This document shows, piece after piece, positions 2,094-59,470 of a stretch of DNA of 64,000 nt. The position numbers and the translations under genes are program-made. This stretch comes from Bradyrhizobium zhanjiangense. Its GTDB lineage: Bacteria; Pseudomonadota; Alphaproteobacteria; Rhizobiales; Xanthobacteraceae. The stretch spans positions 7,089,001 to 7,153,000 of the forward strand of contig NZ_CP022221.1 in NCBI RefSeq assembly GCF_004114935.1, read 5' to 3'. Under the pieces are notes generated by a model. That model was not told the DNA's origin. It ran no database searches and worked only from the letters and a program-made list of their open reading frames with translations. Position 1 is the stretch's first letter. Every line of letters starts with the position of its first letter.

Positions 2094-2993
2094 TCTTTCA
2101 GCTGCGCTCACTTCCGGCTCTCCCAAGCGAGCTAGAACGCCGCATTGACTGAGACAGGTATCTTGCGGCCTTGCGAAGTTTGCGGTCATGTTCGATCGAT
2201 ACAAAGGCAATTACCGCACGAACGGCAGCAATGTCTTGGAAGTAGATAACTTGGCTGACGGCACCGCCAAGAGACGCGACAGCCTCAATTGCGCCGCTGC
2301 ATTGCATGTCGACTCTCCAATAGCATCGTGTTCCGCGTGTCGGTTCAGCGTTGAACGTTACGACACGAAGATGCTTTAGAGAGTGACCCTGCAGCACGGC
2401 GAAGGGAAATTACAATTCGACATCGACTTGATAAACGATGGTTATTGCTGCTTTCCGATTAGCATGATTATGTAGTCGAAATGCACGACCACACCGCACG
2501 CTGAGCCCGGCGCTTCGTTTCAGCAAAGACTCCTGAGCCGCGTTGAGGCGCAATGAACGGCGTCACGACACGCACACCGTTGCCGCGACTTCGGTCGCGA
2601 GCTCGAAGAGACGCTCATCAGTAACCTGCGCGAGCGACACGCACTACGAACAGTAAAGGTGAGCCATTCATGATGCGCATGAATAACTCAAATACATTTT
2701 AGCCGGCTAGCGGCTCATAGGCGAATTGGGCAGCTGGTGTGCTAAGATCCGCCATTCTATCAGGACATTACTTGCCTTCGGCGGAAGCTTCGACTGACGC
2801 TACCTTGTCTTGCTATGACACCGGTCGAACATTCAAAAGCACAATGAAGACGGTGATTGATCGAAAGAGACACTCCACCCAGCAATGAACGATTGATCGG
2901 AACACCGATGCGCGACGCAGACAATACTCGAAGGCCCGCCTATCTCGGAAGTCGTCTCGAACCCGGTTTCTTAACCGTGACTCTGTAGGGTGG
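2094..2993. other. Intergenic region
   Basis: About 900 bases with no convincing gene. The only structured element I see is the operator box at 2382-2447. Short reading frames on both strands lack ribosome binding sites and family resemblance. Confidence 0.5.
2382..2447 (-). promoter_or_regulatory. Conserved operator/promoter box, copy 1 (facing RND efflux operon)
   Basis: On the minus strand the core at 2445-2431 reads ATAACCATCGTTTAT. It is followed by TGTAATTTCCCTTCGCC and CTGCAGGGTCACTC, the same order of blocks seen in six other copies in this window. It points at the efflux operon. The ATA(A/G)-N7-(C/T)TAT spacing is like an OxyR/LysR-type half-site pair; the regulator is inferred, not known. 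Confidence 0.6.
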
Positions 2994-4034
2994 ATGATGG
3001 ACGCAATTGTTCACGGGCAAAATCGCAGTAGGCGTCTCGAGAAGCGCGATGGCTATGTCGCTCTTGCGCCGGCGGCGGCGGCGATTTGTTATCCATTTCT
3101 GCTCAATGCTTTCCATGCTATCGTCGGCACGCAAGCCGCAAGCCTGCCACCCGTCGCAATCGCCTGCGCGACCAGTGTTTTGGTCGTTGCGTTCGTGGTG
3201 CCGTTCCTCGGAATCGCTCTAGCTTGTCGACCAACGTCCGATCCCGGTTCAAGACGCCTCGCCTATGCGAGCGTTGTGTCGCCGACGCTCTATGTTTTTC
3301 TCGGCGTTGTGCAAGCCCTAATCAAGAGCCCTATTCCCGATGAGGTGATCTGGTGCGCGATCTGGCTCGCAATCGCGAAATGGTCGCAGTCTGCACGAGG
3401 TCCGGCTGAATCAGCTGAGCCTGTGGTCGGAGGTTGGCGGGTTGTCCATGGAGTAACGGCCGTGGTCCTGAGCCTATATGTGGTGTTTCATCTAGCGAAC
3501 CATCTGTTCGGCTTGATAGGTCCTGATGCGCACGCCGCAGTGATGAAGATCGGACGCGTGGTTTATCGCTCTGCCGTAGGTGAACCCTTGTTGGTTGCAA
3601 CCATGCTTTTCCAGATAGGGACCGGCCTCCTTCTGGCGTGGCGGTGGAGCGCCTCGGCGCATGACTTCCAGAGGACCTATCAGGTCGCTTCGGGCGCCTA
3701 TCTCTCAGTCTTCATTCTCGGCCACATGAATTCGGTCTTCGTCTACGCACGAAGCTTTCTCGGCATACCCACGGATTGGAACTTCGCGATCGGAGCTCCG
3801 ACTGGGCTCATTCATGACGCTTGGAACATCCGTCTGCTCCCTCACTACGCGCTCGGCGTCTTCTTTGTCTTGAGCCACCTCGCTTCAGGATTAAGGGTGG
3901 TGCTGATCGCACACGGTGTCGATCAACGTACTGCCGGTCGACTTTGGGGTGTCTGCATCGCTATAAGCGCCGTCGTAGCATCAGCGATAATCGCCGGAAT
4001 GTCTGGAATCAGAATCGGTGCATTCGCTTCGTGA
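2994..4034 (+). CDS. Multi-pass membrane protein resembling a di-heme cytochrome b anchor
   Basis: A 346-residue protein with about eight hydrophobic segments. I do not recognise a named family. Several histidines sit inside predicted membrane helices in patterns like those of succinate dehydrogenase/fumarate reductase cytochrome b anchors: HGVTAVVLSLYVVFHLANHL, FILGHMNSVF and LLPHYALGVFFVLSHLASG. Heme b binding is therefore plausible but inferred. The start is one of two adjacent ATGs (2994 or 2997) behind AGGGTGG. No partner flavoprotein or iron-sulfur gene is nearby, so a function as a dehydrogenase anchor is not supported. A 7-bp-arm hairpin follows 55 bp after the stop. Confidence 0.75.
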   Translation: MMDAIVHGQNRSRRLEKRDGYVALAPAAAAICYPFLLNAFHAIVGTQAASLPPVAIACATSVLVVAFVVPFLGIALACRPTSDPGSRRLAYASVVSPTLYVFLGVVQALIKSPIPDEVIWCAIWLAIAKWSQSARGPAESAEPVVGGWRVVHGVTAVVLSLYVVFHLANHLFGLIGPDAHAAVMKIGRVVYRSAVGEPLLVATMLFQIGTGLLLAWRWSASAHDFQRTYQVASGAYLSVFILGHMNSVFVYARSFLGIPTDWNFAIGAPTGLIHDAWNIRLLPHYALGVFFVLSHLASGLRVVLIAHGVDQRTAGRLWGVCIAISAVVASAIIAGMSGIRIGAFAS

Positions 4035-4088
4035 GTTTCGACCACAAAACTGCCTGGCATACGCCTTTTTCAGCGAGGCCCGTGGAAA

Positions 4089-4108
4089 CCATACGTCTCA
4101 TCGTATGG
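4089..4108 (+). terminator. Hairpin after the membrane protein gene
   Basis: Perfect 7-bp inverted repeat CCATACG / CGTATGG with a 6-nt loop, 55 bp downstream of the preceding stop codon. There is no T-run, so terminator function is only possible. Confidence 0.3.
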
Positions 4109-4239
4109 CGCTGCCAAGCGATGACTACGATCCGGCGATCGCCGATGGGACCTGGCGGAGAAGTCCCGACCCGCTTCCGTTTACGCTCCATCGCCCAGGT
4201 CATCGGCACTTGCGGTGCTGCAGCTATCCTATAGCCAAT

Positions 4240-4503
4240 CTAAGGCGTGCTCTCGCATTCTCCTACTGACGAGACGACCCGCTTCGGAAGATAGTGAAGA
4301 AAGGCAGTCGGTGGTATTTTCATTAACTGCCGGAAGGCAAACGAGAACGCGGCAACGCTGCTGAAGCCGACATCTGCCGCGGCGCGCGAGATTGAACGCC
4401 CGACCGAGAGTTGATCGATCGCAAAAGCTATTCTTGCTCTTTGTCGCCAAGCCTTGAGGATCAATCCAGTTTCCATTGAGAAAATGCCGCTCATCCTGCT
4501 CAA
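4240..4503 (-). pseudogene. AraC-family regulator, C-terminal DNA-binding remnant
   Basis: The minus-strand frame contains the second helix-turn-helix of an AraC/XylS regulator (SISRAAADVGFSSVAAFSFAF followed by RQLMKIPPTAF). Only about 87 residues are open; the ligand-binding domain and most of the first helix-turn-helix are missing. I see no continuation upstream, so this is most likely a decayed regulator gene rather than a small functional protein. Confidence 0.6.
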
Positions 4504-5039: not shown

Positions 5040-5519
5040 TCAATTTCTTGCAAAAAATTTGAGGTGGCGGACAAAACCGAGCACATCGTCGGGCATCAGA
5101 CGGCCGATCGCGCGGGTCGAATAGACGGCCGTCACCACTTGGCCTTCGGGGTTCAGGACGAAACCGGTTGCCTGGAGACAGACGGGATCGTCATTAACGA
5201 AGGCGCCGGTCACCGCGGAAACCGCTCGCGCGTCAGCACCGTAAGCGACGGGGAAACCGATTTTGTGCTTTTCGACGAGCATCTCCGACTTTTCCCGGTC
5301 GTCTACCGATACCGAGACGACCTTGATGCCTTCATCGACAAATTTGTCTGCCGCTCGCGCGAAAGCGGCGAGCTGAGCGTTGCAGTACGGGCACCAGGAG
5401 CCACGATGGAATAAAACCACGCCGAACCAACCTGCAAGATCGGCAGGCAGGCTGATTTTTCCGCCCCCGACGCGAGCGAAAGTAAGAGATGGAAAGGTGT
5501 CGCCGTTTTGCAGCATCAT
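5040..5519 (-). CDS. Peroxiredoxin-like thiol protein (AhpC/TSA superfamily)
   Basis: The product (159 aa) has a thioredoxin fold with the active site HRGSWCPYCN (Cys43 and Cys46), the pattern of the PRX-like2 group of the AhpC/TSA superfamily. Peroxide or disulfide reduction in the cytosol is the expected role; there is no signal peptide. I chose the ATG at 5519 because GAGG lies six bases before it; an in-frame GTG at 5531 is also possible. A conserved operator box lies 215 bp upstream and points at this gene, which fits control by an oxidant-sensing regulator. Confidence 0.88.
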   Translation of the reverse strand: MMLQNGDTFPSLTFARVGGGKISLPADLAGWFGVVLFHRGSWCPYCNAQLAAFARAADKFVDEGIKVVSVSVDDREKSEMLVEKHKIGFPVAYGADARAVSAVTGAFVNDDPVCLQATGFVLNPEGQVVTAVYSTRAIGRLMPDDVLGFVRHLKFFARN

Positions 5520-5733
5520 AATCGGCCTCACTGTTTGAACCGCAAGGCGCTCAAACCGCCCGCGGCTTCCTCAAGAATGGCCCCGCATCCGGTGACCAGG
5601 TCTCCTCGCTGATCCCCATCTCCGGAAGGCGCGCCGATACGATGAGGTCGTTGCTTCGCATTATCGAGCCGCCTAGCTTCTCAAGCCGACATTGTATGTC
5701 GGTCGCAGGATCGAATTATACGACGTTAGCTCG

Positions 5734-5803
5734 GAGATTGACCAAAGGACGTCGGCAACGCAAAATTGATTGTCGCCATAAAATCAATAAACGATAGTTA
5801 TAG
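5734..5803 (-). promoter_or_regulatory. Conserved operator/promoter box, copy 2 (facing peroxiredoxin-like gene)
   Basis: Minus-strand core at 5801-5787 is ATAACTATCGTTTAT, followed by TTTATGGCGACAATCAATTT and TTTGGTCAATCTC. These match the other copies block by block. It is oriented toward the peroxiredoxin-like gene. Confidence 0.6.
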
Positions 5804-7173: not shown

Positions 7174-7707
7174 TCATGCGCCGGGAATCATCGACTGAAA
7201 CACTTCATCACGCAGATAAAAGTAGTGGAAGAGGGCCGCGGCTGTATGCACGCCGGCAACCCAGAGGATGGCGTTACCTAGCGTGGCATGTATTTCCATC
7301 ATCAGATGACCCAGACCATGCGCTTTCGTGATCTGCGGAGCGATGTCGAATCCGGGAAGAGTGACGGGAATCCCCTCGAGCCAGGTACCAAGCACGGCCG
7401 TTGTTGGAATCGCAATGAGGAACACATAAAGCACGAAGTGGACGAGCTGCGCGATCAGGGTCATCCATCGCGGCGTCGGCTGCTTCGCTGGCGCGCTGTC
7501 GATCAGCCTCCATACCAACCGCAGTACGACGACACTGAAAACAAAAATTCCGAGCGTCTCGTGAATCCTCCGGAGCCCGTCCGCGGAGGCGGAATAGAGA
7601 GAGTAGCCATCGCCACTGCTCAGCACATAAGCGACAAGAACCAGCATGACCGTCAGCCAATGGAACAATCGGGCGCCGGCGCCGTAGCGAGAAGAAGTGC
7701 TGCGCAA
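7174..7707 (-). CDS. Cytochrome b561 (CybB family)
   Basis: A 177-residue membrane protein with four hydrophobic helices. It has the histidines expected for two b hemes: LFHWLTV in helix 1, the IHETLG region in helix 2, and HATLGNAILWVAGVHTAAAL in the C-terminal half. The family moves electrons from quinol or superoxide across the inner membrane. The only start not blocked by the upstream stop is a TTG at 7707. It directly follows a broken RidA-type gene and shares its upstream operator box. Confidence 0.9.
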   Translation of the reverse strand: MRSTSSRYGAGARLFHWLTVMLVLVAYVLSSGDGYSLYSASADGLRRIHETLGIFVFSVVVLRLVWRLIDSAPAKQPTPRWMTLIAQLVHFVLYVFLIAIPTTAVLGTWLEGIPVTLPGFDIAPQITKAHGLGHLMMEIHATLGNAILWVAGVHTAAALFHYFYLRDEVFQSMIPGA

Positions 7708-7712
7708 AGCGA

Positions 7713-8148
7713 TTACCTAACTTGGAAATTCACCACCGCCGCTTCGCCTCTGGCTCCGGGCAGCGTCACCCTGAAGGTGATTTCGACGAGCTGTTCAGGA
7801 AAGGCCAGTCTCGCCACACCGACCAGGTTGCTGGCGCATCGAGGCGTGCCGCACGCCTGCCTGCGCACGTTGCCCGCCGCGGCGAGTGCGGCGACGACGA
7901 GGACATGAAGCCTCTCCTGAACGGCGGTGTCCAACGTTGCTCCGAAGCGCGCTGAACTCCTGACGGCATTGGCGTCGGTCGCCCACATCTGTCGTTCCAT
8001 CATCGAGATCTCCGCGAGCCGACCGAATTCATCGAGAAGCAGGCGCTATCAGGTTGCGATTTTCGTGCCGGCTGAGTTGGCCCGAGACACGGGTCGCATC
8101 ACCGACCTCAAACTGTTGTCTTTCATATTGCCCCTCGTTGCTTTTCAC
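7713..8148 (-). pseudogene. RidA/YjgF-family protein, frameshifted
   Basis: Two minus-strand frames together give a full RidA-type protein. FEVGDATRVSGQLSRHENRN and LIAPA come from the first frame, then LLDEFGRLAEISMMERQM and a C-terminus CASNLVGVARLAFPEQLVEI from the second. The switch is near 8040, where one extra or missing T stops the first frame. RidA proteins deaminate reactive enamines/imines and some act as chlorination-activated chaperones. Conserved operator copy 3 lies about 50 bp upstream and cytochrome b561 follows 6 bp downstream. Exact start (GTG at 8148) is uncertain. Confidence 0.65.
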
Positions 8149-8199
8149 GCTGGTCGCGTCTCGTTGGCGGCATTTAGTATTTGAATGACGATAGTTGAA

Positions 8200-8267
8200 G
8201 AATGACCATGCAACTGCACCGAGTGAAATCACCTTTCGCCATAGAGTCGATAGACGATCGTTATTGC
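8200..8267 (-). promoter_or_regulatory. Conserved operator/promoter box, copy 3 (facing RidA pseudogene and cytochrome b561)
   Basis: Minus-strand core at 8264-8250 is ATAACGATCGTCTAT, followed by CGACTCTATGGCGAAAGG, TGATTTCACTCGG and GGTCATTC. It diverges from copy 4, which lies 210 bp away on the other strand. Confidence 0.65.
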
Positions 8268-8475: not shown

Positions 8476-8546
8476 GCGATAACGATCGTATATCGACTCT
8501 ATGTCGAAAGGTGATTTCCCTTGGCGGGCCTTGCAAGCTCATTCTC
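8476..8546 (+). promoter_or_regulatory. Conserved operator/promoter box, copy 4 (facing RidA fragment and oxidase operon)
   Basis: Core ATAACGATCGTATAT at 8479-8493, then CGACTCTATGTCGAAAGG, TGATTTCCCTTGG and CTTGCAAGCTCATTCTC. It ends 75 bp before a well-supported small reading frame at 8622. Confidence 0.65.
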
Positions 8547-8621
8547 CAACGCGTCGTCATACCGCAGCTTTCAAATGACGTCACCAACACGCGATCAGAT
8601 CGAGAAGCCAGGAGGCTCGAT

Positions 8622-8861
8622 ATGCAAAGCAACGGCGTAAACCCGGCCTCAGTAAGTGGTAAAGCCGCCGATTTCGGTGAACCATGGGAAGATGGCTACC
8701 GGTACGTAACGGCGGACAGGATTGGCGAAACGATCCATGTTTCCGACCAGCTCAGCTACAAAAATAAGGACAACGTGATCGCGCCGGATTCTCCCGATAA
8801 AGCCGGCCCGGTTGCAATGCCGCTGACGTCACGCTTTTGGCGCGCCTCAGGGCAACGCTGA
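8622..8861 (+). pseudogene. Truncated RidA/YjgF-like N-terminal fragment
   Basis: A 79-residue frame with an excellent ribosome binding site (AGGAGG, seven bases before ATG). The stretch DRIGETIHVSDQLSYKNKDN then VIAPDSP parallels the RidA N-terminal pattern and the pseudogene at 7713-8148. After about residue 60 it turns into unrelated sequence (MPLTSRFWRASGQR), so the rest of the RidA fold is missing. It lies between operator copy 4 and the oxidase genes and could be a translated leader. I consider it the decayed first gene of that transcript. Confidence 0.5.
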
Positions 8862-8882: not shown

Positions 8883-10283
8883 ATGATGTCCGATAGCGCT
8901 GCAGCCATTCCACTTCGCGCGCTCCCTCCGGATGACCGTGTTTTGGCGCGAGTGCTCGCGGCGTACGTGGCGTCGGCAACAATCTGGCTTGTATTCGCCA
9001 CGGCCGTGGGGCTCTTCGTCAGCTTCAAATTCGCTTACCCGGATTTCGCGACCACGCCGGCGCTCTCGTTCGGTCGGCTGCGCGCGATACACACCAGCGG
9101 AACATTTTATGCCTGGGCGAGCCAGGCGCTGATTGGGCTTGCGCTGTTTGTCGCCGCGCGCAGTTCTGGCGCAAGGCTCTACAGCGAGCGCCTCGCATGG
9201 ATCAGTCTTGCGCTTCTCAATCTCGCCGCCGTGCTGGGCACGGTCACACTCGATCTCGGCTTCACCTACGGCCAGGAGTATCGCGAATGGCTGTGGTGGA
9301 TTCGCGCAATCCTTGGACTCGGCTTGATCACCGCGGTCTGGAATATGATCGCCACTGTCGAGCGCCGGGATGACGAGCATATCTATATTTCTAACTGGTA
9401 TACTATCGGGGGCACGCTGTGGACGATTGTTATGGTCGTGGTGTCGATGTTGCCCTGGTATCAGTACGGACTGGGTCAGGTCGCGGTGCAGGCCTTCTTC
9501 ATGCATAACGCCGTCGGACTATGGTTCACGCCTCTATCGCTCGGTGTGTCCTACTATGCGCTGCCGAAGCTCCTGAACCGGCCGATCTATTCATATTCTC
9601 TCGGCGTCTTTGCATTCTGGACCAATCTCATCTTCTATCCGATCATCGGCGCTCATCATTTTGAATTCAGTCCACTGCCATGGTGGCTGCAGACTACGGC
9701 CATCGTCTTCAGTGTGGCCATGCTGGTTCCAGTGCTGAGCGGCACCGCAAACTTCCTTCTCACCTTCCGGGGGACTCACGAATGGATATATCGCTCGCCC
9801 GCGGTTTTCATCCTCGTCGGCGTCTACGGCTATCTACTGGGTTCGATACAAGGCACATTCGAGGCGTTTCGCTCGCTGCAGCAGCTTTGGCATCTGACCA
9901 ATTACACGGTAGGGCACTCGCACCTGACGATGTATGGCTTCGTCACTTTCGCGATCTGGGGTGGCATCTATGCGCTGTTGCCGCGCGCCACCGGCAAGTA
10001 TCCCTACAACCTGAGCATGGGTATACATTTCTGGCTGTCCGCCGTCGGCGTTGTCATATACGTTGCGGCGCTTTCGGCCGCCGGCACCATTCAGGGGCTC
10101 GATTGGCTTCGAGGACTCACTTTCATCCAGTCGGTCGAAGATGCCGCGCCATACTGGCTGTGGCGCTCCGTCGGCGGCTCGCTGATGTTCGCCGGCCATC
10201 TTGTCTTCGCTTTCAACGTCTGGACAATGACCTACGGTAGGTCCTGCACCGAGCTTGCGGCAGCCAAGACGGTGCCGGCATGA
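8883..10283 (+). CDS. ccoN: cbb3-type cytochrome oxidase catalytic subunit (CcoN-like)
   Basis: A 466-residue protein with about twelve helices and the heme-copper ligands of CcoN. His70 is in RAIHTSGTF, His208 in FMHNAVGLW and His258/His259 in GAHHFEF; His345 and His347 are in TVGHSHLTMYG. The RPIYSY segment after the CuB helix carries the tyrosines that provide the cross-linked Tyr in CcoN. It reduces O2 in the inner membrane with electrons from c-type cytochromes. GAGGAGACGG precedes the start. It overlaps the next gene by 4 bp. Sequence differs clearly from ordinary rhizobial FixN, so a second, divergent oxidase is likely. Confidence 0.88.
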   Translation: MMSDSAAAIPLRALPPDDRVLARVLAAYVASATIWLVFATAVGLFVSFKFAYPDFATTPALSFGRLRAIHTSGTFYAWASQALIGLALFVAARSSGARLYSERLAWISLALLNLAAVLGTVTLDLGFTYGQEYREWLWWIRAILGLGLITAVWNMIATVERRDDEHIYISNWYTIGGTLWTIVMVVVSMLPWYQYGLGQVAVQAFFMHNAVGLWFTPLSLGVSYYALPKLLNRPIYSYSLGVFAFWTNLIFYPIIGAHHFEFSPLPWWLQTTAIVFSVAMLVPVLSGTANFLLTFRGTHEWIYRSPAVFILVGVYGYLLGSIQGTFEAFRSLQQLWHLTNYTVGHSHLTMYGFVTFAIWGGIYALLPRATGKYPYNLSMGIHFWLSAVGVVIYVAALSAAGTIQGLDWLRGLTFIQSVEDAAPYWLWRSVGGSLMFAGHLVFAFNVWTMTYGRSCTELAAAKTVPA

Positions 10284-11608
10284 ACAGGACATTGGCCATT
10301 TCTGGCGGTTCGACGCTGATCTACACTGGACTAGCGATTCTTATGGGCGTGCTGCCGGGGATCTGGCTGTCAAAGGTGCCACCGACGCCGGGCCTTAAGC
10401 CACTAACCTCGATGGAGGCGCGGGGTCGGGATGTCTATGTCTCCGAAGGCTGCTTCTATTGCCATACCCAGCAAGTACGCCCGCTCTCCGGAGATAAGCC
10501 GTTTGGCCGCCCGTCTGCGCCGGGCGATTATGCCTACCAGACTACGGAATTACTAGGTTCGGAGCGCACTGGTCCAGACTTGAGCAATATCGGCGCGCGG
10601 CAGTCGAGCAGCATATGGCAGTACATCCATCTCTATCAACCGCGTGCAGTTGTGCCGCAATCGATCATGCCGGCCTTCCCCTGGCTGTTCAGGATTGTGG
10701 ACAAACTACCTCCAGGAGAAACAGCGGTGCCATTGCCGCCCCAGTTCGCGCCAGGCGGTACCGTCATCCCCAACGACGACGGCAAGGCGCTCGTAGCCTA
10801 TTTGTTGTCGCTGAAGCAGCCCCCGCTCGTTCCGAAGCAGTCCCGCGCCGCGACTGAGAGTCCTTCGAGCGGGTCCCTGGGGTTTGACGCCACCAAGGGT
10901 GCCGCATTGTTCGCCGACAACTGCGCATCCTGCCATGGTGCGGAAGGCAAGGGTGTGCCGGGAACGTTTCCGCCGCTCGCCGGAGATCCGGTGGTTAACG
11001 ACGCCGATCCCACGGCACATATTGGCGCTGTGCTGCATGGACTTGGCGGGCGGGTAATCAATGGCCAGAGCTATGAAGCGCAAATGCCGGCGTTTGCCGA
11101 TCAATTGTCTGATCAGCAGATTGCTGACATCATCGATTACGAGCGATCCTCGTGGGGCAATCGTGGTGCCTTAATCAGTGCGGCTGATGTCGTCGCGGCT
11201 CGCGCCAACGAACCACTGCAGAAGCAGGCAACGACGCCGAAACAGGTCTCGCCGGTAGCGCCCCCGGCACGGACGTTCGATGCTGCGGAAGGATCGAAGC
11301 TCTTCGCCGACAACTGCGGCGTCTGCCACGGCGCCGAGGGCAAAGGCGTTCCTGGCACATTTCCGCCGCTTGCAGGCGATCCGGTCGTTAATGCCACTGA
11401 CCCTGCCGAACATATCACCACCATGCTGCGCGGCCTTAGCGGTAAGGCAATCGACGGCCAGAAGTACGAAGTAGAGATGCCGCCGTTCGCTGACCGACTG
11501 TCCGATCAGCAGATCGCCGATATCATCAATCACGAGCGCACGTCATGGGGTAACCACGGGCCGTTGGTGACGCCTGCCGAGATCACGAAGCTCCGTGCTG
11601 AAAAATAG
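10280..11608 (+). CDS. Tri-heme CcoO-type cytochrome c fusion protein
   Basis: A 442-residue protein with an N-terminal membrane anchor and a CcoO domain (heme motif CFYCH, Cys58-His62; QQVRPLSGDKPFGRPSAPGD). Two near-identical class I cytochrome c domains follow (CASCH near 215 and CGVCH near 346). Both carry GAEGKGVPGTFPPLAGDPVVN and LSDQQIADII, showing a recent internal duplication. In standard cbb3 oxidases CcoO is mono-heme and the di-heme CcoP is separate; here one chain carries all three hemes. Its start overlaps ccoN (ATGA). Distal Met ligands are present near EMPPFAD/QMPAFAD. Confidence 0.88.
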   Translation: MNRTLAISGGSTLIYTGLAILMGVLPGIWLSKVPPTPGLKPLTSMEARGRDVYVSEGCFYCHTQQVRPLSGDKPFGRPSAPGDYAYQTTELLGSERTGPDLSNIGARQSSSIWQYIHLYQPRAVVPQSIMPAFPWLFRIVDKLPPGETAVPLPPQFAPGGTVIPNDDGKALVAYLLSLKQPPLVPKQSRAATESPSSGSLGFDATKGAALFADNCASCHGAEGKGVPGTFPPLAGDPVVNDADPTAHIGAVLHGLGGRVINGQSYEAQMPAFADQLSDQQIADIIDYERSSWGNRGALISAADVVAARANEPLQKQATTPKQVSPVAPPARTFDAAEGSKLFADNCGVCHGAEGKGVPGTFPPLAGDPVVNATDPAEHITTMLRGLSGKAIDGQKYEVEMPPFADRLSDQQIADIINHERTSWGNHGPLVTPAEITKLRAEK

Positions 11609-14783: not shown

Positions 14784-16652
14784 CTACGATGATTTCATGC
14801 CGGAGCCCTGCGGCACATCTCCGATAAGCTCCTGACGCGAAGCTCCCCAGAGCAGGCCAGTCCCGACGACGGCAGAAAGACTCGAGGCGGCGAACACAGC
14901 GATTTTTGCGGCCGAGAAGTCGGTGGCGCTTGGAAATGCCTGTCCGGCGATGAAGAGCGACATCGTGAAGCCAATGCCAGCGAGGGCTCCCGCCCCGCCC
15001 AGCTGCCGCCACGTGTATTCGGCCGGCTTGACGGCTATGCCTGTGCGCACTGCCGCTGCGGCCGCGAGGAAGACGCCGAGCGGTTTTCCTATAGCGAGAC
15101 CAGCGACGATCGCAGCCGTGAGACGGCCATGGCCAGCGAGGACGCCTGGGTTGATCGTCACTCCGGCATTCGCCAATGCGAAGATAGGGAGGACGGCGTA
15201 GCTCGATCGCGCGCCGGCGTGTCGTAGCAGTCGATCGGCGGGCGATTCAATCCTATCGTAGATTGCGTCGAGCGCCTGCAGGGCTGGAGTGGAGGGGCCG
15301 CGCCTGAGAACTTCGCCCTCATGCCGAGCCTCGGACGCGATGATGGTGCTCGCCTGCGTCATCAGGGCTGCCAGATTGGCGGGCGGTCGCGTCGGAATGA
15401 ACAAGGCAAGTAACACGCCGGCCAATGTAGCGTGGAGACCGCTCGCGTATACGAGGGCCCACAGCGCAGCGCCCATCAGGATGTAGGGCGAGAGATGGTA
15501 CACCCCAGATCGGCTCAGCAGCACTAGCGCAACTATAACCATCGCCACAGCAGCAAGGTAGACCAGATGGATTTCGCCGGAGTAAAACACGGCGACGACG
15601 ACGATCGCACCGATGTCGTCAACGATGGCCGCCGCGGTGAGGAAGATACGCAGCTCGACGGGGACGCGGGAGCCCATCACTGCAATCAAGGCAATCGCGA
15701 ACGCGGTGTCGGTCGCCATCGGAACGCCCCACCCGTACGACCACGGCCCCACGGGGAGAACCAGCGAATACAGACACGCCGGCACAACCATGCCGCCGAG
15801 CGCGGCCGCGATCGGAAGCGCCGCGGAGCGACGGCTTGCGAGGTGTCCGACTGTCATCTCGCGCTTCACTTCCAATCCAACAACGAGGAAGAACAGCGTC
15901 AACAGCCCGTCGTTGACCCAATGGAGGATGGACATCCGAAAGGCTGCGCTGCCCAAGCTCACGCCGAACTCCCAGCGCCAGAGCGCCTCGAATGCCGGCC
16001 CGATCGGCGAGTTCGTCAAGACAATCGCCGCCACAGTAGCGACGACGAGCAAAATGCCGGCGGACGGGCCCCAGCTCGCGAAGTCTAGGGCAGCCGTACG
16101 GACGCGGTGGCCAAGCGTGCCAAGCATTGCATCAACGAGAGAACTTTCGTCCCAGGGCCCGTCGTAGCGCCGGCGGTTAATGTAAAATGTCGGCGTGAAT
16201 CTCACGCCGCTCGCGCGTGCACTCGCGATGTCCGACTCCACCCTCGCCTTCGCGCGCCGAACCGCGTCGCCATCGCGAAGCGTGGGGTTGGCATGCACAC
16301 TTAGGTCAGCGGCCACCGCCGAAAGGTCGTCCTCTGTGAGCTGCATCGACCTCGTCATCAGCTTGATGTGCGCGGACCAGAACGTCTCTGGCGTCTGAGC
16401 AAGCTCAGCGAGCTCCGCAGCACGGAAGGAAAGACTGTTGTCCGTGAGCGGCCTGTGGCGGAAGGCATAGCAAACGCGGTCGCCAAGTTGATCGCGCGCC
16501 TGCGCGATGCGCTCGTTGGCAGCCCTGCAGTGCGGACAGGCGTAGCTGCCGTACTCAACCAGCGAGATCTCGGCATCGGCGGGGCCGAGCACGTGCTCTG
16601 TCTTGTGATCGACTGCACGATCGAGGCGGCCGGGCGGGATCATAAGCTTCAT
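14784..16652 (-). CDS. nhaA: Fusion of DsbA-like thioredoxin domain and NhaA Na+/H+ antiporter
   Basis: 622 residues. Residues 1-190 are a DsbA-like thioredoxin fold with active site YACPHC (Cys39, Cys42) and the cis-Pro region RFTPTFYINRR. Residues 200-600 are a complete NhaA with the transport aspartates (VDDIGAI), MATDTAFAIALIAV and SLFIAGQAF. NhaA exports Na+ in exchange for protons. The N-terminal domain lacks a signal peptide, so it probably faces the cytoplasm and may serve as a redox switch. The ATG overlaps the stop of a small upstream gene (ATGA), so translation is coupled. Confidence 0.9.
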   Translation of the reverse strand: MKLMIPPGRLDRAVDHKTEHVLGPADAEISLVEYGSYACPHCRAANERIAQARDQLGDRVCYAFRHRPLTDNSLSFRAAELAELAQTPETFWSAHIKLMTRSMQLTEDDLSAVAADLSVHANPTLRDGDAVRRAKARVESDIASARASGVRFTPTFYINRRRYDGPWDESSLVDAMLGTLGHRVRTAALDFASWGPSAGILLVVATVAAIVLTNSPIGPAFEALWRWEFGVSLGSAAFRMSILHWVNDGLLTLFFLVVGLEVKREMTVGHLASRRSAALPIAAALGGMVVPACLYSLVLPVGPWSYGWGVPMATDTAFAIALIAVMGSRVPVELRIFLTAAAIVDDIGAIVVVAVFYSGEIHLVYLAAVAMVIVALVLLSRSGVYHLSPYILMGAALWALVYASGLHATLAGVLLALFIPTRPPANLAALMTQASTIIASEARHEGEVLRRGPSTPALQALDAIYDRIESPADRLLRHAGARSSYAVLPIFALANAGVTINPGVLAGHGRLTAAIVAGLAIGKPLGVFLAAAAAVRTGIAVKPAEYTWRQLGGAGALAGIGFTMSLFIAGQAFPSATDFSAAKIAVFAASSLSAVVGTGLLWGASRQELIGDVPQGSGMKSS

Positions 16653-17022: not shown

Positions 17023-17097
17023 TGATTAAGATTGGGTCAGCGACGGTGGAAAAGAAAATCACCTCTCGCCATGAAGTCGATAGCCAGCCGTTATCGG
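17023..17097 (-). promoter_or_regulatory. Conserved operator/promoter box, copy 5 (facing DsbA-NhaA operon)
   Basis: Minus-strand core at 17094-17080 is ATAACGGCTGGCTAT, followed by CGACTTCATGGCGAGAGG and TGATTTTC. The distal GGTCATTCTC block is poorly conserved in this copy. Confidence 0.55.
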
Positions 17098-17787: not shown

Positions 17788-17858
17788 GGCAATAATGGTC
17801 GTCTATCGACTCCATGGCGAGAGGTGATTTCCCTCGACCGAGTTGCAAGGTCATTCTC
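17788..17858 (+). promoter_or_regulatory. Conserved operator/promoter box, copy 6 (facing secreted protein)
   Basis: Core ATAATGGTCGTCTAT at 17792-17806, then CGACTCCATGGCGAGAGG, TGATTTCCCTCG and GTTGCAAGGTCATTCTC. It ends 32 bp before the ATG of the next gene, the closest spacing of all copies. Confidence 0.65.
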
Positions 17859-17889
17859 GTTGCGTGGTTTAAAGCGAACAGGAGCTTCC

Positions 17890-18369: not shown

Positions 18370-18410
18370 CAGCAAACGGAAACGCGCGTTTCGTCGGAGA
18401 CCATAATGGA

Positions 18411-47454: not shown

Positions 47455-48300
47455 ATCGAATATCCTGCAGCGGGCCAACAGCAGAGCGAATATCTATCGA
47501 CCGCAAGAATCTTGGTGTTTTTCGGCTTTTGCGATTTCAAGCGTGCCTGTCGGCTACGTGACAGAGCTGCACCAGTATTGAGTTCGCCCGTTGAGTCGCC
47601 TTGATGCAATGACAGATAGCGACCCCGGGATGGCAAGCGCGCTTTAGTGTTGCTAATCCAAAAAGGCAGCTACCAATCAACCAACCAAAGGCGACTCGTC
47701 CAATTAATTCTGACTTCTAGGACACGGCTGACCCTTAAGCCAACTTAGGTTGACAGGTGATCGAGACCACGGAGCTGTCGGGCACGCCAGAGACGAAGCA
47801 GAACTACTCACTCAATAAACCCGCAAGAATGATAACGCCGTAACAAGAACTGAGCTTACCGTCGCGCTTAATCTGCTCTATCTCTGGCCAGACATCAAGA
47901 CAGCAGCGTCACGGATAACCAGGATGCGAACCATATTCCCTGCGCCAACTGCATTGCCCACCGGGGCCGATGTGACCGTGTGGGGTACAAAACGCTGTGC
48001 CCATGACGTCGACATCCAAGGTCGCCATCAGCACATCGAGATCGGATCGAGGCCATGCAAGGTTCATGATCCAAGGTTTTTGCCGGACCCTCGAATTGAG
48101 CTGATGTCATCGTCCGCGGCGTTAGCAGGAAAGAGCGTTGGCGAGAGAACTTTTCGCCAGGCGGATATCGAGAACTCCGGGCCGATGCATAATTCCCATT
48201 TCGTCAGAAACTCCACGACCAATCCTTTTGCCATCACCCCTGCTTCCCATGGCAACGAGCTGAAATGGTCCGGACCATGGCAAATCTCTCGGGTGTGAGC
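47455..48300. other. Intergenic region
   Basis: About 850 bases with no supported gene. At its right end ATGGTCCGGACCAT (48264-48277) is a perfect 14-bp palindrome 24 bp before the LysR gene, a candidate operator. Confidence 0.4.
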
Positions 48301-49377
48301 ATGCATCTGCAGTTTCATCAGGTGCGATACTTCTTGGCCCTCGCAAGGACGCTCAATTTTACCCAAGCGGCAAAGCAATGCAATGTGACTCAGCCAGCAC
48401 TGACAAAGGCGGTTCACAAGCTGGAGGAAGAGCTCGGCGGAGCGTTGATTCACCGTGAACGTCGTTTCACCCAACTCACCGAGTTGGGCAAGATGGTTTT
48501 GCCCACGCTCGAGCAAGTATTTGCCGCCGCGGAGGCGGTACGGCTTCAGGCGCGAAGTTATCAAAAAAAGACAATCGCCAGGCTCAAAATAGGACTGTCG
48601 CCATCAATCTCGGCCGCACTCATTACGGAAGTGCTCTGGGAGCTCACTACGACCATCCCTGACCTACGTTTCGATCTGCGCGAAGCCGATGCCAATGGGC
48701 TCGTTACGATGCTCTTGGATGGCGAAATCAATGCGGCACTCGTCGGCGACGCTGTGGAGCTGCCTGAACGTATCGATCGCTGGCCGCTGTTCGAAGAGCG
48801 GTACATGCTCGTTCTCCCTCGGGAACATGTAATGGCGAGGAAATCCGTCATCCCGCTACACGACTTGCACGAGTTGATTTTTCTCGAAAGGCTCGGATGC
48901 GATGTCGCAAGTAGATTCGTGCAAGCTGGTCTTCTCGACCATCAAGGTCCAAGAATTGTGCACAGCAGCGATCAGGAAAAGCATCTTCAGCAAATGGCAT
49001 CCGCCGGTTTTGGAGCCATCCTAGCCCCAGAGCACGCTCCCAGGCTGCCATCGCTCGCCGCTATTCCGATTGAGGGCGATCCCGTCCGGTGCGAGGTGCA
49101 GCTCTTGGCCGTGGCGGGGAGGCGATATTCGCCAGCGCTTGACGCCTTCATCAAAATTGCCCGTGCTCGCGATTGGACGCGTGTGCTGGACACAATCCGC
49201 AACGCATCTGCACCTGCGTCGAACAACGACAACATTCGCAAGCCCGACGCACAAGCTGCAAGCTCCCTGTTTGAGTCACGCCTCCGAGCCGATCGCTCAC
49301 GAGATCCTCGGATAATTCGGAGCGAAGATCGGGAAGTACGGAAAGTCCCGCAACCTCACTCAATCGAACGGCGGTGA
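48301..49377 (+). CDS. LysR-family transcriptional regulator
   Basis: About 358 residues. The N-terminal winged helix-turn-helix is standard (FHQVRYFLALARTLNFTQAA, CNVTQPALTKAVHKLEEELG). The effector domain follows (LKIGLSPSISAALITEVLWE, FDLREADANGLVTMLLDGEI). The C-terminal ~60 residues are longer than usual, charged and possibly altered by the insertion-sequence debris that follows. It is the only intact LysR gene in the window and thus a candidate regulator for the conserved operator boxes; this link is inference. Start ATG 48301 or 48265. Confidence 0.88.
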   Translation: MHLQFHQVRYFLALARTLNFTQAAKQCNVTQPALTKAVHKLEEELGGALIHRERRFTQLTELGKMVLPTLEQVFAAAEAVRLQARSYQKKTIARLKIGLSPSISAALITEVLWELTTTIPDLRFDLREADANGLVTMLLDGEINAALVGDAVELPERIDRWPLFEERYMLVLPREHVMARKSVIPLHDLHELIFLERLGCDVASRFVQAGLLDHQGPRIVHSSDQEKHLQQMASAGFGAILAPEHAPRLPSLAAIPIEGDPVRCEVQLLAVAGRRYSPALDAFIKIARARDWTRVLDTIRNASAPASNNDNIRKPDAQAASSLFESRLRADRSRDPRIIRSEDREVRKVPQPHSIERR

Positions 49378-49484: not shown

Positions 49485-49510
49485 GGTTATGTTGCGTGCA
49501 ACATAACCGC
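49483..49510. repeat. 28-nt palindrome at the left RIT boundary
   Basis: GCGGTTATGTTGC and its exact reverse complement separated by GT. It has no counterpart at the right end and lies between the IS66 sequence and the left terminal repeat. Confidence 0.8.
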
Positions 49511-49512
49511 AT

Positions 49513-49595
49513 TTATGTGTCGGAGGAGATTATGTGGCGGAGGCGCCCTAACGCCAGCCGGGGCCGGCCACGGCTGGATTCCTCCGCCACATAAT
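49513..49595 (+). repeat. RIT left terminal inverted repeat
   Basis: Begins TTATGTGTCGGAGGAG and ends CCTCCGCCACATAAT; 80 of 83 positions match the right repeat in reverse complement. Confidence 0.9.
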
Positions 49596-49654
49596 ATTTT
49601 GTGCCCCTCGTGCGGACGCGGGATCCCCCTGCGCCGTAACGCCGGAGGGGCATA

Positions 49655-50892: not shown

Positions 50893-51821
50893 CCGCCTTC
50901 GCCGCATTCCTCGGCGACAAGGTCGAGCGTTACATCGAGCTGCGCCGCTCGCTCGGCTACGCCTTCAACAAGCAAGCGGGCACGCTGCGGGCTTTCGTTC
51001 GCTACGTCGAGCGATCTCAGCTGGGTGCGCCCGCCACCCGGACGATGGCGCTGGACTTCGTCCTGTCGTTCGGTGGCGCCGCCGACAGCCGCGCGGTCCG
51101 TCACGGCGTGCTCCGCCGATTCTACGAGTACCTCGTCGTCTACGACCCCCAGACCGAGGTCTTGGAGCGCAAAGCTTTCCCGCGGTCCAGGGCGATTCCG
51201 CCGCCGCGCATCCTAAGTGAGGCTGAGCTGACGTCGCTTATCGACGCATGCAGCTTCATTTCGCCAGGGAACCCTCACAGGGGCCGCACGATGGCGACGC
51301 TAATCGGATTGTTGGCCAGCACGGGATTACGATCGGGCGAAGTGGTCAGCCTTGATCGCGGCGACGTCGATCTGATCAACGGGGTCGTCCTCGTCCGTAA
51401 AACCAAGTTCCGTAAAGACCGCCTGATTCCTGTTCACCCAACAACCCAGGCAGCCCTTCGTCGATACGCCCGTGAGCGCGACACCGTGTTTCCCAGGCCC
51501 AAAGGCGAGGCCTTCTTCCTCAGCTCGCGAGGCTGCCGTCTGTCGGCGACCGGCCTGCAAAGCAACTTCGCTAAGGCCCGCAAGCTCGCGGGTCTTGACA
51601 ATGGCAAGCCTCTGCGACCGCACGATCTCCGGCACCGGTTCGCGGTGACCAGGCTCAGGCTGTGGCACCAACAGCGCGCAGACGTCCAAGCGCTGCTACC
51701 CTTACTCGCCACCTATCTCGGACACGCCAGCTACAGCGACACGGCCTACTACCTCACCGGTTCGTCGGATCTTCTCGCCATCGCGGCTGAACGCGCCTTC
51801 CTCGACGGAGGCGCCGCATGA
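50889..51821 (+). CDS. RIT tyrosine recombinase B
   Basis: 310 residues, intact. Catalytic residues: Arg in STGLRSGEVVSL, KTKF lysine, HDLRHRFAVTRL, and YLGHASYSDTAYYL with the nucleophile tyrosine. Start and stop each overlap the neighbours by four bases (ATGA), so the three genes are translated as a unit. Confidence 0.93.
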   Translation: MTAFAAFLGDKVERYIELRRSLGYAFNKQAGTLRAFVRYVERSQLGAPATRTMALDFVLSFGGAADSRAVRHGVLRRFYEYLVVYDPQTEVLERKAFPRSRAIPPPRILSEAELTSLIDACSFISPGNPHRGRTMATLIGLLASTGLRSGEVVSLDRGDVDLINGVVLVRKTKFRKDRLIPVHPTTQAALRRYARERDTVFPRPKGEAFFLSSRGCRLSATGLQSNFAKARKLAGLDNGKPLRPHDLRHRFAVTRLRLWHQQRADVQALLPLLATYLGHASYSDTAYYLTGSSDLLAIAAERAFLDGGAA

Positions 51822-52825
51822 GCGAACACCTCCTTCTGGCGCCGCTCCTGGAGTCGTACTTCCGGTGCCGGTTGACCAAGCAACGCAACGCGACCTCCGC
51901 GACCCTGGCCAGCTATCGCGACGCCTTGCGCATGCTGATCCTCTTTGCCGCTGCCCGTTTGCGGAAGAAGCCAGCGGCGCTGGCCCTTGAAGATCTCGAT
52001 CGGGACCTCGTTCTCGCCTTTCTCGATGAGCTTGAGGAGAAGCGGAACAATTCCATCGCAACGCGCAACGCCCGACTAGCCGCGATCCGATCCTTCTTCC
52101 ATCACGTCGCTGCCGCCGATCCCGCCTCGTTCGGCGTCGCCCAACGGGTTCTGACGATCCCCACGAAACGGACCCACATCGAGGTGACGCATCATCTCAC
52201 CAACGCCGAGGTGGAGGCCATCATCGCAGCCCCTGATCAGACGACGCCCCGCGGCCGGCGCGACCGGGCCTTTCTGCTCTTCTTGGCGAGAACCGGCGCT
52301 CGCGTGTCCGAAGCGACCGGCGTCAATGCGAACGACCTTCAGTTGGAGCGAGGACGCCCGCAGGTGCTGCTTCACGGCAAGGGACGCCGAGATCGCGTCG
52401 TTCCCATTCCTAAGGATCTGGTGCGATCGCTGACGGACCTATTGAGCGAACGCGGCCTCGCCAATCATGAACCGCGGCCGATCTTCGTCGGGGTCCACAA
52501 CGAGCGCCTGACGCGTTTCGGCGCGACACACATCGTGCGGCGTGCCGCTTCCCAGGCCGGGTCCACGAGGCCAAGCTTGGAGAGCAAGCCGATATCGCCG
52601 CACATCTTCCGGCATTCCCTCGCCATGAAGCTTCTCCGGTCAGGCGTGGACCTCCTGACGATCCAGGCCTGGCTTGGCCATGCTCAGGTCGCCACAACCC
52701 ACCGATACGCCGCTGCGGATGTTGAGATGATGCGCCGGGGCCTCGAGAAGGCGGGCGTCTCAGGCGACCGCAGCGCGCGCTTCCGGCCGAACGACACCAT
52801 CCTGCAGCTGCTGGCCAACATCTGA
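51818..52825 (+). CDS. RIT tyrosine recombinase C
   Basis: 335 residues, intact. Catalytic residues: Arg in RTGARVSEATGV, HGKGRRDR, HIFRHSLAMKLL and WLGHAQVATTHRYAA. It stops 2 bp before the right terminal repeat, as usual in compact RIT elements. Confidence 0.93.
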   Translation: MSEHLLLAPLLESYFRCRLTKQRNATSATLASYRDALRMLILFAAARLRKKPAALALEDLDRDLVLAFLDELEEKRNNSIATRNARLAAIRSFFHHVAAADPASFGVAQRVLTIPTKRTHIEVTHHLTNAEVEAIIAAPDQTTPRGRRDRAFLLFLARTGARVSEATGVNANDLQLERGRPQVLLHGKGRRDRVVPIPKDLVRSLTDLLSERGLANHEPRPIFVGVHNERLTRFGATHIVRRAASQAGSTRPSLESKPISPHIFRHSLAMKLLRSGVDLLTIQAWLGHAQVATTHRYAAADVEMMRRGLEKAGVSGDRSARFRPNDTILQLLANI

Positions 52826-52827
52826 TT

Positions 52828-52910
52828 ATTATGTGGCGGAGGAATCCAGCCGTGGCTGGCCCTGGCTGGCGTTAGGGCGCCTCCGCCACATAATCTCGTC
52901 CGACACATAA
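52828..52910 (-). repeat. RIT right terminal inverted repeat
   Basis: Reverse complement of the left repeat with three substitutions; ends with CCGACACATAA at 52910. Confidence 0.9.
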
Positions 52911-53010
52911 GTGCCGGTCTCGCCTGAAGGCTTCCTGCACCAGTAAGACCAGCGAGTTCATGCCGCAGCGCATGTCTGTATGGCGCCGGTGGCAATCTAC
53001 ACCCGTACGC
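52911..53010 (-). mobile_element. IS66 tnpB (Orf2) remnant, N-terminal side
   Basis: Minus-strand translation HTDMRCGMNSLVLLVQEAFR followed by RDRH is the N-terminal half of IS66 TnpB. Upstream the frame is broken (an in-frame TAG near GVRV), so the gene was decayed as well as interrupted. Confidence 0.75.
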
Positions 53011-55527: not shown

Positions 55528-55590
55528 CGTCCACCTCTTCGAGTGTGGTATGTCATCATGATCCAATATTTTCGCAGAGGATCGAAAATA

Positions 55591-55660
55591 CGATGTGAAA
55601 CTCGGTGGTCCAATGACCTGTAGATATGGAATCGATGCCATCGATGCAGCGTGCGAGAAG
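55591..55660 (-). promoter_or_regulatory. Shared LysR-type operator region, copy H1
   Basis: On the minus strand this reads ...GCATCGATGGCATCGATTCC, ATATCTACAGGTCATTGG, ACCACCGAGTTTC. It matches 58367-58435 over about 70 bp at roughly three of four positions. The TCGATG-N-CATCGA dyad is a plausible LysR site. Confidence 0.6.
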
Positions 55661-56791: not shown

Positions 56792-57089
56792 CATTGCTTC
56801 GTCCTGGAGCCCGAGCAAAGTGGATCGTGGATTAGGCTTCGACCAGCCTCTCGATGCTTACCCCCCGCTTTGTTGATCTCCGACGACTTGTTGCCAGCGA
56901 GGTCCTGAATGGGGCGTTGGCTTCACCCGGCGTCGTTCCTTAGGAGGCCCTACCCGCCTTGACACGACTGACGAGGCGTCAAGTGCGTACAGAGCCATCT
57001 AATGCCAAGGATGGTGAGGGAACAGCCTTGGCCCTGCGCGATCATTTTGGTCGGTGGCTTGCAACCGACACACCCTCCCATCATTCGGT

Positions 57090-57519: not shown

Positions 57520-57537
57520 TAGTCTCCGAAATTCATA

Positions 57538-58173: not shown

Positions 58174-58366
58174 AGTCGTTCCGGCAATGTTGCTGCGATG
58201 AGGGCTGTTCGACATCTCATTTGGGGGCAATGTGAGTTTCTCAGCTTGCCCCCGGCGGGTCTGATAGGACGCGGTCGGCGGATCTGGTTCTCGCCGGCCC
58301 GCCGTTCCCCCGCCTGGTATGGTGGGCCGTCATCTTCCGCATTCTTTGCATACGAGCGAAGCTATT

Positions 58367-58435
58367 GCGACGAAACTCGATGAACCAATGACCTTTGGTT
58401 ATGGATTTGATGCCATCGACGCGGCGCGCAAGGAT
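58367..58435 (-). promoter_or_regulatory. Shared LysR-type operator region, copy H2
   Basis: On the minus strand: GCGTCGATGGCATCAAATCC, ATAACCAAAGGTCATTGG, TTCATCGAGTTTC. Aligns without gaps with copy H1 at 55591-55660. Both copies point at a flavin- or NADPH-dependent reductase gene. Confidence 0.6.
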
Positions 58436-58521
58436 CAACTAGTGTCAATAATGTCCACTGCTTATGATGAAGGCGACTCTTAGTGCATAGGAGTGTTGAT
58501 TTTCTCAGACCGATATCATTC

Positions 58522-58955
58522 GTCAGATGCGGAGGCAGCCCTCGGCGAGAATACGAACGAGCGCCCCACTTTCCAACTCGGCCTCCGCACCGATGAGGCT
58601 TGAGGCGACGATCCCCAGCCCGGCCTTCGCTTCGACAACCTAGGAGTGACCTAGCTCGACGAGGTTCCGATGCGAAACACCCCTCGCAGTTCTCCGGTGC
58701 CGCGAGCCTCGTGGTCGGGCTCCTCAAGCTCGGCCAGGATCGCCTCTACACGCATTAAGTAGGTTGCTCCAGCGTCGGCCAGCGTGATCGCCCGGGTGTT
58801 CGGCTAAAGAGAATCGCCCCGACTTCGACCTCCAAGGCGGCAATAAGGCGTGATGCGGAGGGCTGAGAGAAATCGACTTCACGACCTGCCCCCGAAAAGC
58901 TCCCCACGCGAGCTGCGCGAGCGAACAGCTTCAGCGCTGTAAGTTGGTCGTTCAT
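58522..58955 (-). pseudogene. LysR-family regulator, decayed
   Basis: Starts MNDQLTALKLFARAARVGSF and SGAGREVDFSQPSASRLIAA, a LysR helix-turn-helix. A frameshift near 58780 leads to LADAGATYLMRVEAILAELE and LRGVFRIGTSSS then stop. Only the far C-terminus of the effector domain (EAKAGLGIVASSLIGAEAEL) remains, so about 150 residues are deleted. It was probably the regulator of the nitroreductase and quinone oxidoreductase genes. Confidence 0.8.
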
Positions 58956-59399
58956 CTGTGAACGCAGTTCGGTACCCACCTCTTCTTGATGAGATCGCGG
59001 GTCCTCAAGTTAGTGAATGCTCCGTTCAGCGCCAAAGCAGTGAGCGGGAGTTTCTCGCTCAAAAGTGTGCTCGTCTCCAAGTGATCTTCGAATGCGTCGG
59101 CGTCAAGATGACCGATCTGTCTAAGACTTCGTTAGATCGTGCGAATGCGGGGAGGTATTCACGCGCATCATGATGTCCAAAGTGTCACGCGCTCCTCGCC
59201 GGTATCGTGCACCATCTGTGAACATCTCTCGGGGCTGACCGCACGAACTCGCAGCTTCAGTCGAGCATGCCGCGACGCCATTCAAGGCGGGTTTGCCAAC
59301 TGAAGGCGGCTTATAACTCGCTGCAGAATAGAAGCGTCGGTCTTGCGTCCGATAAGGTTCGCATCTTTCCTGGCTACGGCATCATGTATGCGGCGCGCT
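58956..59399. other. Intergenic region
   Basis: No supported gene. Confidence 0.4.
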
Positions 59400-59470
59400 A
59401 CAATAACGATCGTCTATCGACTTCATGGCGAGAGGTGATTTCCCTCGCCCACAATGCAAGGTCACTGTCG
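59400..59470 (+). promoter_or_regulatory. Conserved operator/promoter box, copy 7 (facing GMC oxidoreductase)
   Basis: Core ATAACGATCGTCTAT at 59403-59417, identical to copy 3, then CGACTTCATGGCGAGAGG, TGATTTCCCTCG and ATGCAAGGTCACTGTC. It ends about 145 bp before the start codon, with a GA microsatellite in between. Confidence 0.65.

Follow-up and report, generated by a model that had tools for sequence, protein, structure and literature searches.

The window considered here, a stretch of 64,000 nucleotides of the Bradyrhizobium zhanjiangense genome (contig NZ_CP022221.1, positions 7,089,001 to 7,153,000), contains seven copies of a conserved block and a gene encoding a LysR-type regulator (48265..49377, plus strand), which is the best candidate for the protein binding these sites. 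The repeats are quite probably promoter-operator units read by one LysR subfamily encoded on the same gene cluster. On the minus strand, copies of this putative operator are located at 2377..2448 (50.4 bits on the site matrix described below), upstream of the gene for an RND efflux periplasmic adaptor (900..2093, minus strand; HlyD and RND_mfp matches); at 5732..5803, the lowest-scoring copy of the seven (39.4 bits), upstream of a peroxiredoxin-like gene with an AhpC/TSA domain match (5040..5519, minus strand); at 8196..8267, upstream of a decayed RidA-like frame (7713-8003, minus strand) and a cytochrome b561 gene (7174-7647, minus strand); and at 17027..17096, upstream of the remnant of a HATPase-type gene and a gene for a DsbA-NhaA fusion (14784..16652, minus strand; domain matches). 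On the plus strand, the copy at 8476..8548 is the divergent partner of that at 8196..8267 and precedes a remnant resembling RidA (ATG at 8622) and then a cbb3-like oxidase operon, with COX1 and FixO matches for subunit I and the FixO/cytochrome c subunit (8883..11608, plus strand); the copy at 17789..17859 precedes the gene for a small secreted-looking protein (ATG at about 17890), for which no Pfam match was found, and then an overlapping caspase-domain frame; and the copy at 59401..59471 precedes a GMC-family oxidoreductase gene (59615..61204, plus strand; domain match), after which follow genes encoding Dps (61383-61898) and a glutathione-reductase-like protein (62221-63720).

The frame 7713-8003 has no Pfam match and was read as RidA on visual comparison with an intact RidA that follows a site in another locus (L064); together with the frame 8622-8860, likewise recognized by eye, it forms a divergent pair of decayed RidA-like frames with an operator copy ahead of each. 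The longest version of the caspase-domain (Peptidase_C14) frame, 17814-19007, begins within the operator, so that the real start probably lies further down. Two direct 251-nt repeats (10910-11553, 73% identical) are present within the FixO/cytochrome c gene, where two cytochrome c domain matches were also detected.

All seven cores named in a preliminary description of this DNA were found where it had placed them, at 2431, 5787, 8250 and 17080 on the minus strand and at 8479, 17792 and 59403 on the plus strand, and the aligned copies share a block of approximately 73 bp with 25 invariant columns. Its statement that all of them are followed by ATGGCGAnAGG was too strong, since this word is exact at 8250, 17080, 17792 and 59403 (four of the seven), differs by a single base at 8479 and has diverged at 2431 and 5787; the downstream word TTGCAAGGTCATTCTC is exact at 17792, with near matches at 8250, 8479 and 59403, and is exact nowhere else among the seven. 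With up to three mismatches allowed, a search with the core gave seven matches in the window against 0.85 expected, six of them claimed sites (the match at 9419 lies outside the set and 17080 was not recovered), and ATGGCGAGAGGTGATTTC gave five against 0.09 expected. With a 45-position matrix built from 74 sites, including six of the seven window sites, exactly seven positions of the window exceeded 8 bits, scoring 39.4-79.7, and nothing in the reversed sequence exceeded 6 bits. A chance origin of the window copies is excluded, because the counts of the core and of ATGGCGAGAGGTGATTTC and the matrix scores all exceed the expectation or the reversed-sequence control.

The genome-wide scan that had been proposed was run with a sequence profile built from the seven window copies (R1) on the 9,342,022-base genome and revealed eight strong sites (E<=2.2e-14) in a single 65-kb stretch, the eighth being located at genome position 7155855 (window coordinate approximately 66855), 2.9 kb past the window end. 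The next R1 match had an E-value of 0.15 and no further strong copy was found in the 9.34-Mb genome; the site set is therefore confined to one locus. The next-best match is located at genome position 7084484, upstream of a cytochrome c gene; with 24.7 bits on the 74-site matrix, it is possibly a ninth, weak site.

Regarding the anatomy of the sites, the core has the layout ATAA-N7-CTAT-N7-ATGG-N7-TGAT, and over 74 sites ATAA was present in 67, CTAT or TTAT in 66, ATGG in 61 and TGAT in 52, with a spacing of 7 bp each. The fourth element is followed by TTT and by a CANNNT motif located 17 bp beyond a TTCCCT-like hexamer, with the expected A and T in 57 of the 74 sites, and conservation stops at about position 72 of the alignment. 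The eight sites of this genome hold 49 bits over 41 positions, compared with 9.5 bits for random columns of equal depth. As in LysR-type operators, a T-N11-A dyad (ATAA-N7-CTAT) is followed by a second, weaker dyad (ATGG-N7-TGAT) on the promoter side, and the block is likely a LysR-type tetramer site joined to a probable promoter. The likeness in spacing to OxyR/LysR sites that had been noticed previously holds, the 4-7-4-7-4-7-4 layout being maintained over the 74 sites and a LysR subfamily co-occurring with them.

Among 391 genomes of the family, R1 matches were detected in 18, strong ones in 17 and a single weak match (E=7e-4) in the remaining genome (G092). Of the strong genomes, 14 have 5-11 sites and three have two, and the sites are often clustered on a single contig. 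At the order level, a profile of 74 non-redundant sites (R2) detected strong sites in three of 397 genomes and one weak match in G597, and in a draw of 385 genomes at the class level it matched this genome and G1004 only; the match in G1004 was judged false, since the fetched stretch scores at best -19.6 on the matrix. Carriers of the sites include many Bradyrhizobium, Afipia sp. 1NLS2, Mesorhizobium, Chelatococcus, Devosia and Rhizobium, and sites were also present on plasmids of Rhizobium jaguaris, of Sinorhizobium mexicanum, where they lie upstream of a GMC oxidoreductase gene and 0.7 kb ahead of an RND adaptor gene, and of Mesorhizobium sp. B2-1-1, where a site lies upstream of a sulfite-oxidase-like gene. 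In compiling the sites, 13 of 111 matches (below 21.6 bits) were dropped to give an earlier set of 98, with locus L058 dropped as a near copy of L057, and 16 of 120 matches (window repeats, duplicates, edges and weak matches) were dropped from the later set.

Orientation and target genes were counted for 179 of 195 sites, sites fetched twice under two names having been removed. With gene calls from a simple script, and with related genomes and loci that make the counts non-independent, 59 sites between tandem genes pointed with the genes and 8 against them, 78 were in divergent gaps, 8 were convergent, 7 were inside predicted genes and 19 were near ends; by target group, the tandem orientation was with the genes in 14, against them in three and equal in one. 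The random orientation and the in-gene positions that had been named as marks of a mobile repeat were thus not what was found, and orientation, the few in-gene copies and the confinement to a single region instead of scatter all favor an operator, as had been proposed. An earlier and cruder count (98 sites, any gene start within 500 bp), which ignores divergent promoters, gave 74 forward, 47 backward and 10 inside.

A downstream open reading frame (ORF) family in common with another site was found for 169 of the 179 sites. These families, which were built from all frames and are approximate, with function checked on representatives only and with one site possibly counting in several, comprise the HATPase-type gene/DsbA-NhaA (27 sites), GMC oxidoreductase (25), a sulfite-oxidase-like molybdoenzyme (16), cupin (15), MFS (15), RND adaptor (12), cytochrome P460 (10, weak sites, with the family checked in L169), a small secreted-looking protein (9), AhpC/TSA (7), RidA, baeRF12 and ABM (6 each) and Dps, oxidase and cytochrome b561 (2-3 each). 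One further ORF family is made by six weak Mesorhizobium matches that are probably false; weak R2 matches in the Mesorhizobium loci L203-L210 (17-21 bits), which carry more distant LysR genes, were not accepted, being within predicted genes in four cases, and six of them remain among the 179. The commonest target, with an MQIKET-type start (10737-12032 in L057 and 4249-5313 in L148), encodes a protein of 355-432 aa with a HATPase domain after an N-terminal part without assignment; in L057 this protein ends with a piece of NhaA, and it is a remnant of this gene that precedes DsbA-NhaA behind the 17027 site in the window.

Regarding the candidate regulator, the protein encoded at 48265..49377 (P0001) has an N-terminal helix-turn-helix domain (HTH_1, 3.7e-19) and a C-terminal substrate domain (LysR_substrate, 6.9e-28), and its structural model has the LysR fold. 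LysR is a large family, so that matches at E<=1e-20 are expected in most genomes, and these were present in 336 of the 391 family genomes. A best match at E<=4.5e-106 was detected in 17 genomes, elsewhere being no better than 8.6e-59, and these 17 are precisely the 17 with strong R1 sites. At the order level, LysR matches of at least 57% were found among 377 genomes in G000, G064 and G444 only, the same three that have strong sites in the 397-genome draw, the overlap of the two draws being assumed; G444 is a member of a different family and was picked up independently of the LysR, and three further genomes have LysR matches of 38-41%. The best 80 of 274 LysR relatives represent 78 loci, 72 of which were scanned for sites (L135, L143, L145, L164, L175 and L209 were omitted), and a site above 30 bits within approximately 10 kb of the LysR gene was present in 39 of 55 subfamily loci versus none of 17 loci with cousin genes (34-42% identity). 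In a tree of 82 sequences, 51 of the subfamily are on one branch with weak support (54/16), while the group that adds only one long sequence, L055, has support of 100/99. Within the subfamily, the window copy and a copy at 7081490 stand for two branches, either of which can be present in a genome with sites while the other is missing; both may therefore read the operator. A further LysR paralog is located at 7169116. In viral contigs, a single-sequence LysR query found no relative.

Other regulator genes were considered and rejected. The AraC-type protein of the window has a close homolog in only three of the 17 site-bearing genomes, this one included; the regulator at 37477-38130 is matched in all 17, but at 84% or more in no more than five, among them this genome; and the second LysR of some clusters (Afipia, Mesorhizobium and others) is absent from the window. 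Two further features near the candidate gene are a 1611-aa protein with protein kinase, AAA ATPase, GAF, PAS and histidine kinase domains (42619-47454) and, directly downstream of the LysR gene, a transposon-like unit (49509-52914) in which three integrase-family genes (49655-52825) lie between an 88-nt inverted-repeat pair that is 95% complementary.

Some of the cousin LysR genes have sites of the same layout at their own promoters. The pattern AT..-N7-.TAT-N7-AT..-N7-..AT was detected in the own upstream region of 14 of 42 LysR sequences scoring below 240 bits, several of the positives being close relatives and the 42 including L055 and a fragment from L195, which belong with or near the subfamily; it was also found in four of 78 subfamily sequences, two of which (L143 and L171) have wrong offsets. 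The 17 cousin loci contain 42 occurrences of the strict pattern, many of which are LysR-upstream sites counted on both strands, so that the expectation of 0.063 per region is too high. Examples with OxyR-like elements are ATAG-N7-CTAT-N7-ATAG-N7-GCAT in L194 and ATAG-CTAT-ATAG-GTAT in L196. The weak R2 match in G597 (20.7 bits) is located about 250 bp upstream of a LysR gene matching at 37% and is oriented toward a divergent short-chain dehydrogenase gene; with GTAG as its third element, it is not counted among the 14. In L214 (357-2436), a LysR gene stands opposite a short-chain dehydrogenase gene. Since such cousins have sites of this layout at their own genes, the layout is tied to the LysR lineage independently of the cluster.

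Among known systems, OxyR has the solved structure nearest to the window LysR in sequence (4x6g, E=1.3e-21) and is also the best fold match of its model (pLDDT, predicted local distance difference test, 71, moderate), with BenM and CbnR also among the fold neighbors. OxyR makes four contacts 7 bp apart, to ATAG-N7-CTAT twice, and its activation site adjoins the -35 element. The system described here shares with it the LysR type, four tetranucleotides at 7-bp spacing and oxidant-defense targets, but differs in that elements 1, 3 and 4 of ATAA/CTAT/ATGG/TGAT deviate from the OxyR consensus, the sites are confined to one cluster, the cysteine arrangement is another one and the NCBIfam OxyR cut-offs are not reached (91.6 of 329 bits for NF008361 and 65.5 of 500 bits for NF050018). 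Set against the OxyR redox pair (C199 and C208), a cysteine at 198/200 was found in 25 of 27 subfamily sequences and also in cousins, and is therefore not subfamily-specific; 22 of the 27 have a second one at 208/210 or 219, compared with none of 14 cousins, two of which have a cysteine at 216. Redox sensing is plausible. NodD binds nod boxes, strongly conserved LysR-type operators of approximately 47 bp that are repeated before several operons of a transferable island or plasmid and have the half-site ATC-N9-GAT. Long conserved LysR-type operators repeated ahead of several operons are found here too, but before stress-type and not nodulation genes, and the ATC-N9-GAT half-site was present in none of the seven window sites. 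BenM, CatM and CbnR resemble the candidate in fold (BenM and CbnR) and in the type of recognition site (ATAC-N7-GTAT), but have aromatic-catabolism targets and usually a single divergent promoter. LsrB of Sinorhizobium and Mesorhizobium and HypT of Escherichia coli are LysR-type regulators of antioxidant genes which, in the accessible parts of the reports, are described without a multi-copy island operator, a distinction drawn from these descriptions and not from sequence (PMC8226930, PMC13272141). No description of the operator or of this LysR subfamily was found in the literature searched, which left most subscription papers out of reach. By analogy, the regulon may act like OxyR and be organized like nod boxes without necessarily belonging to either, and it is most likely an undescribed LysR-type regulon with a stress flavor.

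A LysR tetramer would contact the four half-elements ATAA-7-CTAT-7-ATGG-7-TGAT, the first two as the T-N11-A recognition site and the last two as the activation site, with the fourth adjoining a weak putative -35 element (approximately TTCCCT) 17 bp ahead of a CANNNT-type candidate -10 element. When a redox or electrophile signal arrives, the tetramer would change its hold on the DNA and bring in RNA polymerase, presumably activating and not repressing, so that efflux, peroxiredoxin, RidA, GMC oxidoreductase with Dps, the sulfite-oxidase-like enzyme, cytochrome P460, the oxidase and DsbA-NhaA would be switched on jointly. The regulon probably turns on an oxidant-stress defense kit. The earlier suggestion that the gene set fits oxidant or reactive-chlorine defense stands for its first part, with RND/MFS efflux, peroxiredoxin, RidA, GMC oxidoreductase, sulfite-oxidase-like, DsbA-NhaA and oxidase genes, while reactive chlorine is not specifically supported. 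Chlorite dismutase was rejected as a sign of chlorine chemistry: matches to its family occur in 12 of the 17 genomes, but the single one here, at 1.73 Mb, is remote from the cluster (7.09-7.16 Mb).

Three other explanations were weighed against a LysR operator set with an oxidant signal. That the copies are a mobile repeat, resembling miniature inverted-repeat transposable elements (MITE) or repetitive extragenic palindromes (REP), or a promoter cassette copied by recombination and upstream of genes by accident, might be suggested by an information content that is high for an operator (49 bits over 41 positions in eight copies), by their limitation to one region and by the nearby integrase-family genes with the 88-nt inverted-repeat pair; yet it is highly improbable given 9.34 Mb without another strong copy, conservation that finishes at about position 72, the tandem ratio of 59 to 8, only 7 of 179 copies inside genes and 169 ahead of shared ORF families. 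Moreover, site identity follows the target and not the locus, being 0.888 for the same target across loci, 0.766 for different targets in one locus and 0.758 for different targets in different loci, so that recent copying or gene conversion is disfavored. The MITE/REP reading was accordingly rejected on the genome scan, orientation, in-gene count and identity by target, and the copies look like operators with promoter elements. It is also quite unlikely that they are promoters for an alternative sigma factor of the extracytoplasmic function (ECF) type, or boxes bound by a different regulator next to which the LysR simply happens to lie, even if the conserved block reaches the promoter region, AraC-type and hybrid-kinase genes occur in the window together with a regulator gene that has many paralogs, and B. 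japonicum reportedly has ECF factors inducible by reactive oxygen species (PMC3420878); the four-element symmetry over about 40 bp exceeds two sigma hexamers, LysR cousins show the same layout at their own promoters, and, of the regulators compared, neither the AraC, close in just three of the 17 genomes, nor the second LysR, missing from the window, has the distribution of the sites. A LysR operator set answering a metabolic signal (an aldehyde, phenolic or quinone) is rather doubtful, though it carries more weight than these two. The cousin LysR of G597 opposite a short-chain dehydrogenase gene, the cysteine at 198/200 common to cousins, and efflux pumps and GMC oxidoreductase suited to toxic organics speak for it, whereas Dps, peroxiredoxins, RidA, MsrA/MsrB neighbors and the sulfite-oxidase-like enzyme recur in the clusters and the extra cysteine at 208/210 or 219 sets 22 of 27 subfamily sequences apart from all 14 cousins (two with 216).

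Several observations weigh against the reading of the repeats as operators of this LysR subfamily. The co-occurrence could stem from co-residence on one mobile cluster and cannot by itself tell a regulator from a linked passenger, and as the genomes and loci counted are related, the counts are not independent. In G092, the genome with the weak R1 match, the LysR match reaches just 28%, the approximately 10-kb flanks of 16 of the 55 subfamily loci yielded no site above 30 bits, and Rhizobium sp. WYJ-E13, with a LysR of 48.6%, has no detectable site in 24.9 kb. In this genome, the matrix scan found no recognizable site before the window LysR gene itself, the window LysR is without the second sensor-domain cysteine of its close orthologs, and no clear gene follows the eighth site on the same strand within 1 kb.

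The window also encodes porphobilinogen deaminase, uroporphyrinogen decarboxylase, P460, CcmF, a globin and the cbb3-like oxidase, and the S. mexicanum stretch has heme, Ccm and P460 genes too; the cluster therefore seems to bring its heme and cytochrome machinery along. A tentative extension of the LysR operator reading is that this is a transferable, self-contained redox regulon, in which a LysR lineage would have lost the site at its own gene, which some cousins retain, gained additional sensor-domain cysteines and set a longer 40-bp operator, with hardly any variation, ahead of at least eight stress operons of a mobile cluster. If this were true, it would be an island-borne counterpart of OxyR, arranged in the manner of nod boxes and bringing sensor, operators and respiratory and heme machinery to new hosts. 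The sites and the LysR provide a testable regulator-operator pair for a stress cluster that is patchy over Bradyrhizobium, Afipia, Mesorhizobium, Sinorhizobium, Rhizobium, Chelatococcus and Devosia, and one operator would unite genes usually annotated apart, including those for the P460 cytochrome, GMC oxidoreductase, DsbA-NhaA, RidA and the sulfite-oxidase-like enzyme. They also suggest a way in which a LysR operator multiplies within a gene cluster, as with nod boxes, and, if the oxidant reading is true, the clusters may help their carriers to survive host oxidants during nodulation.

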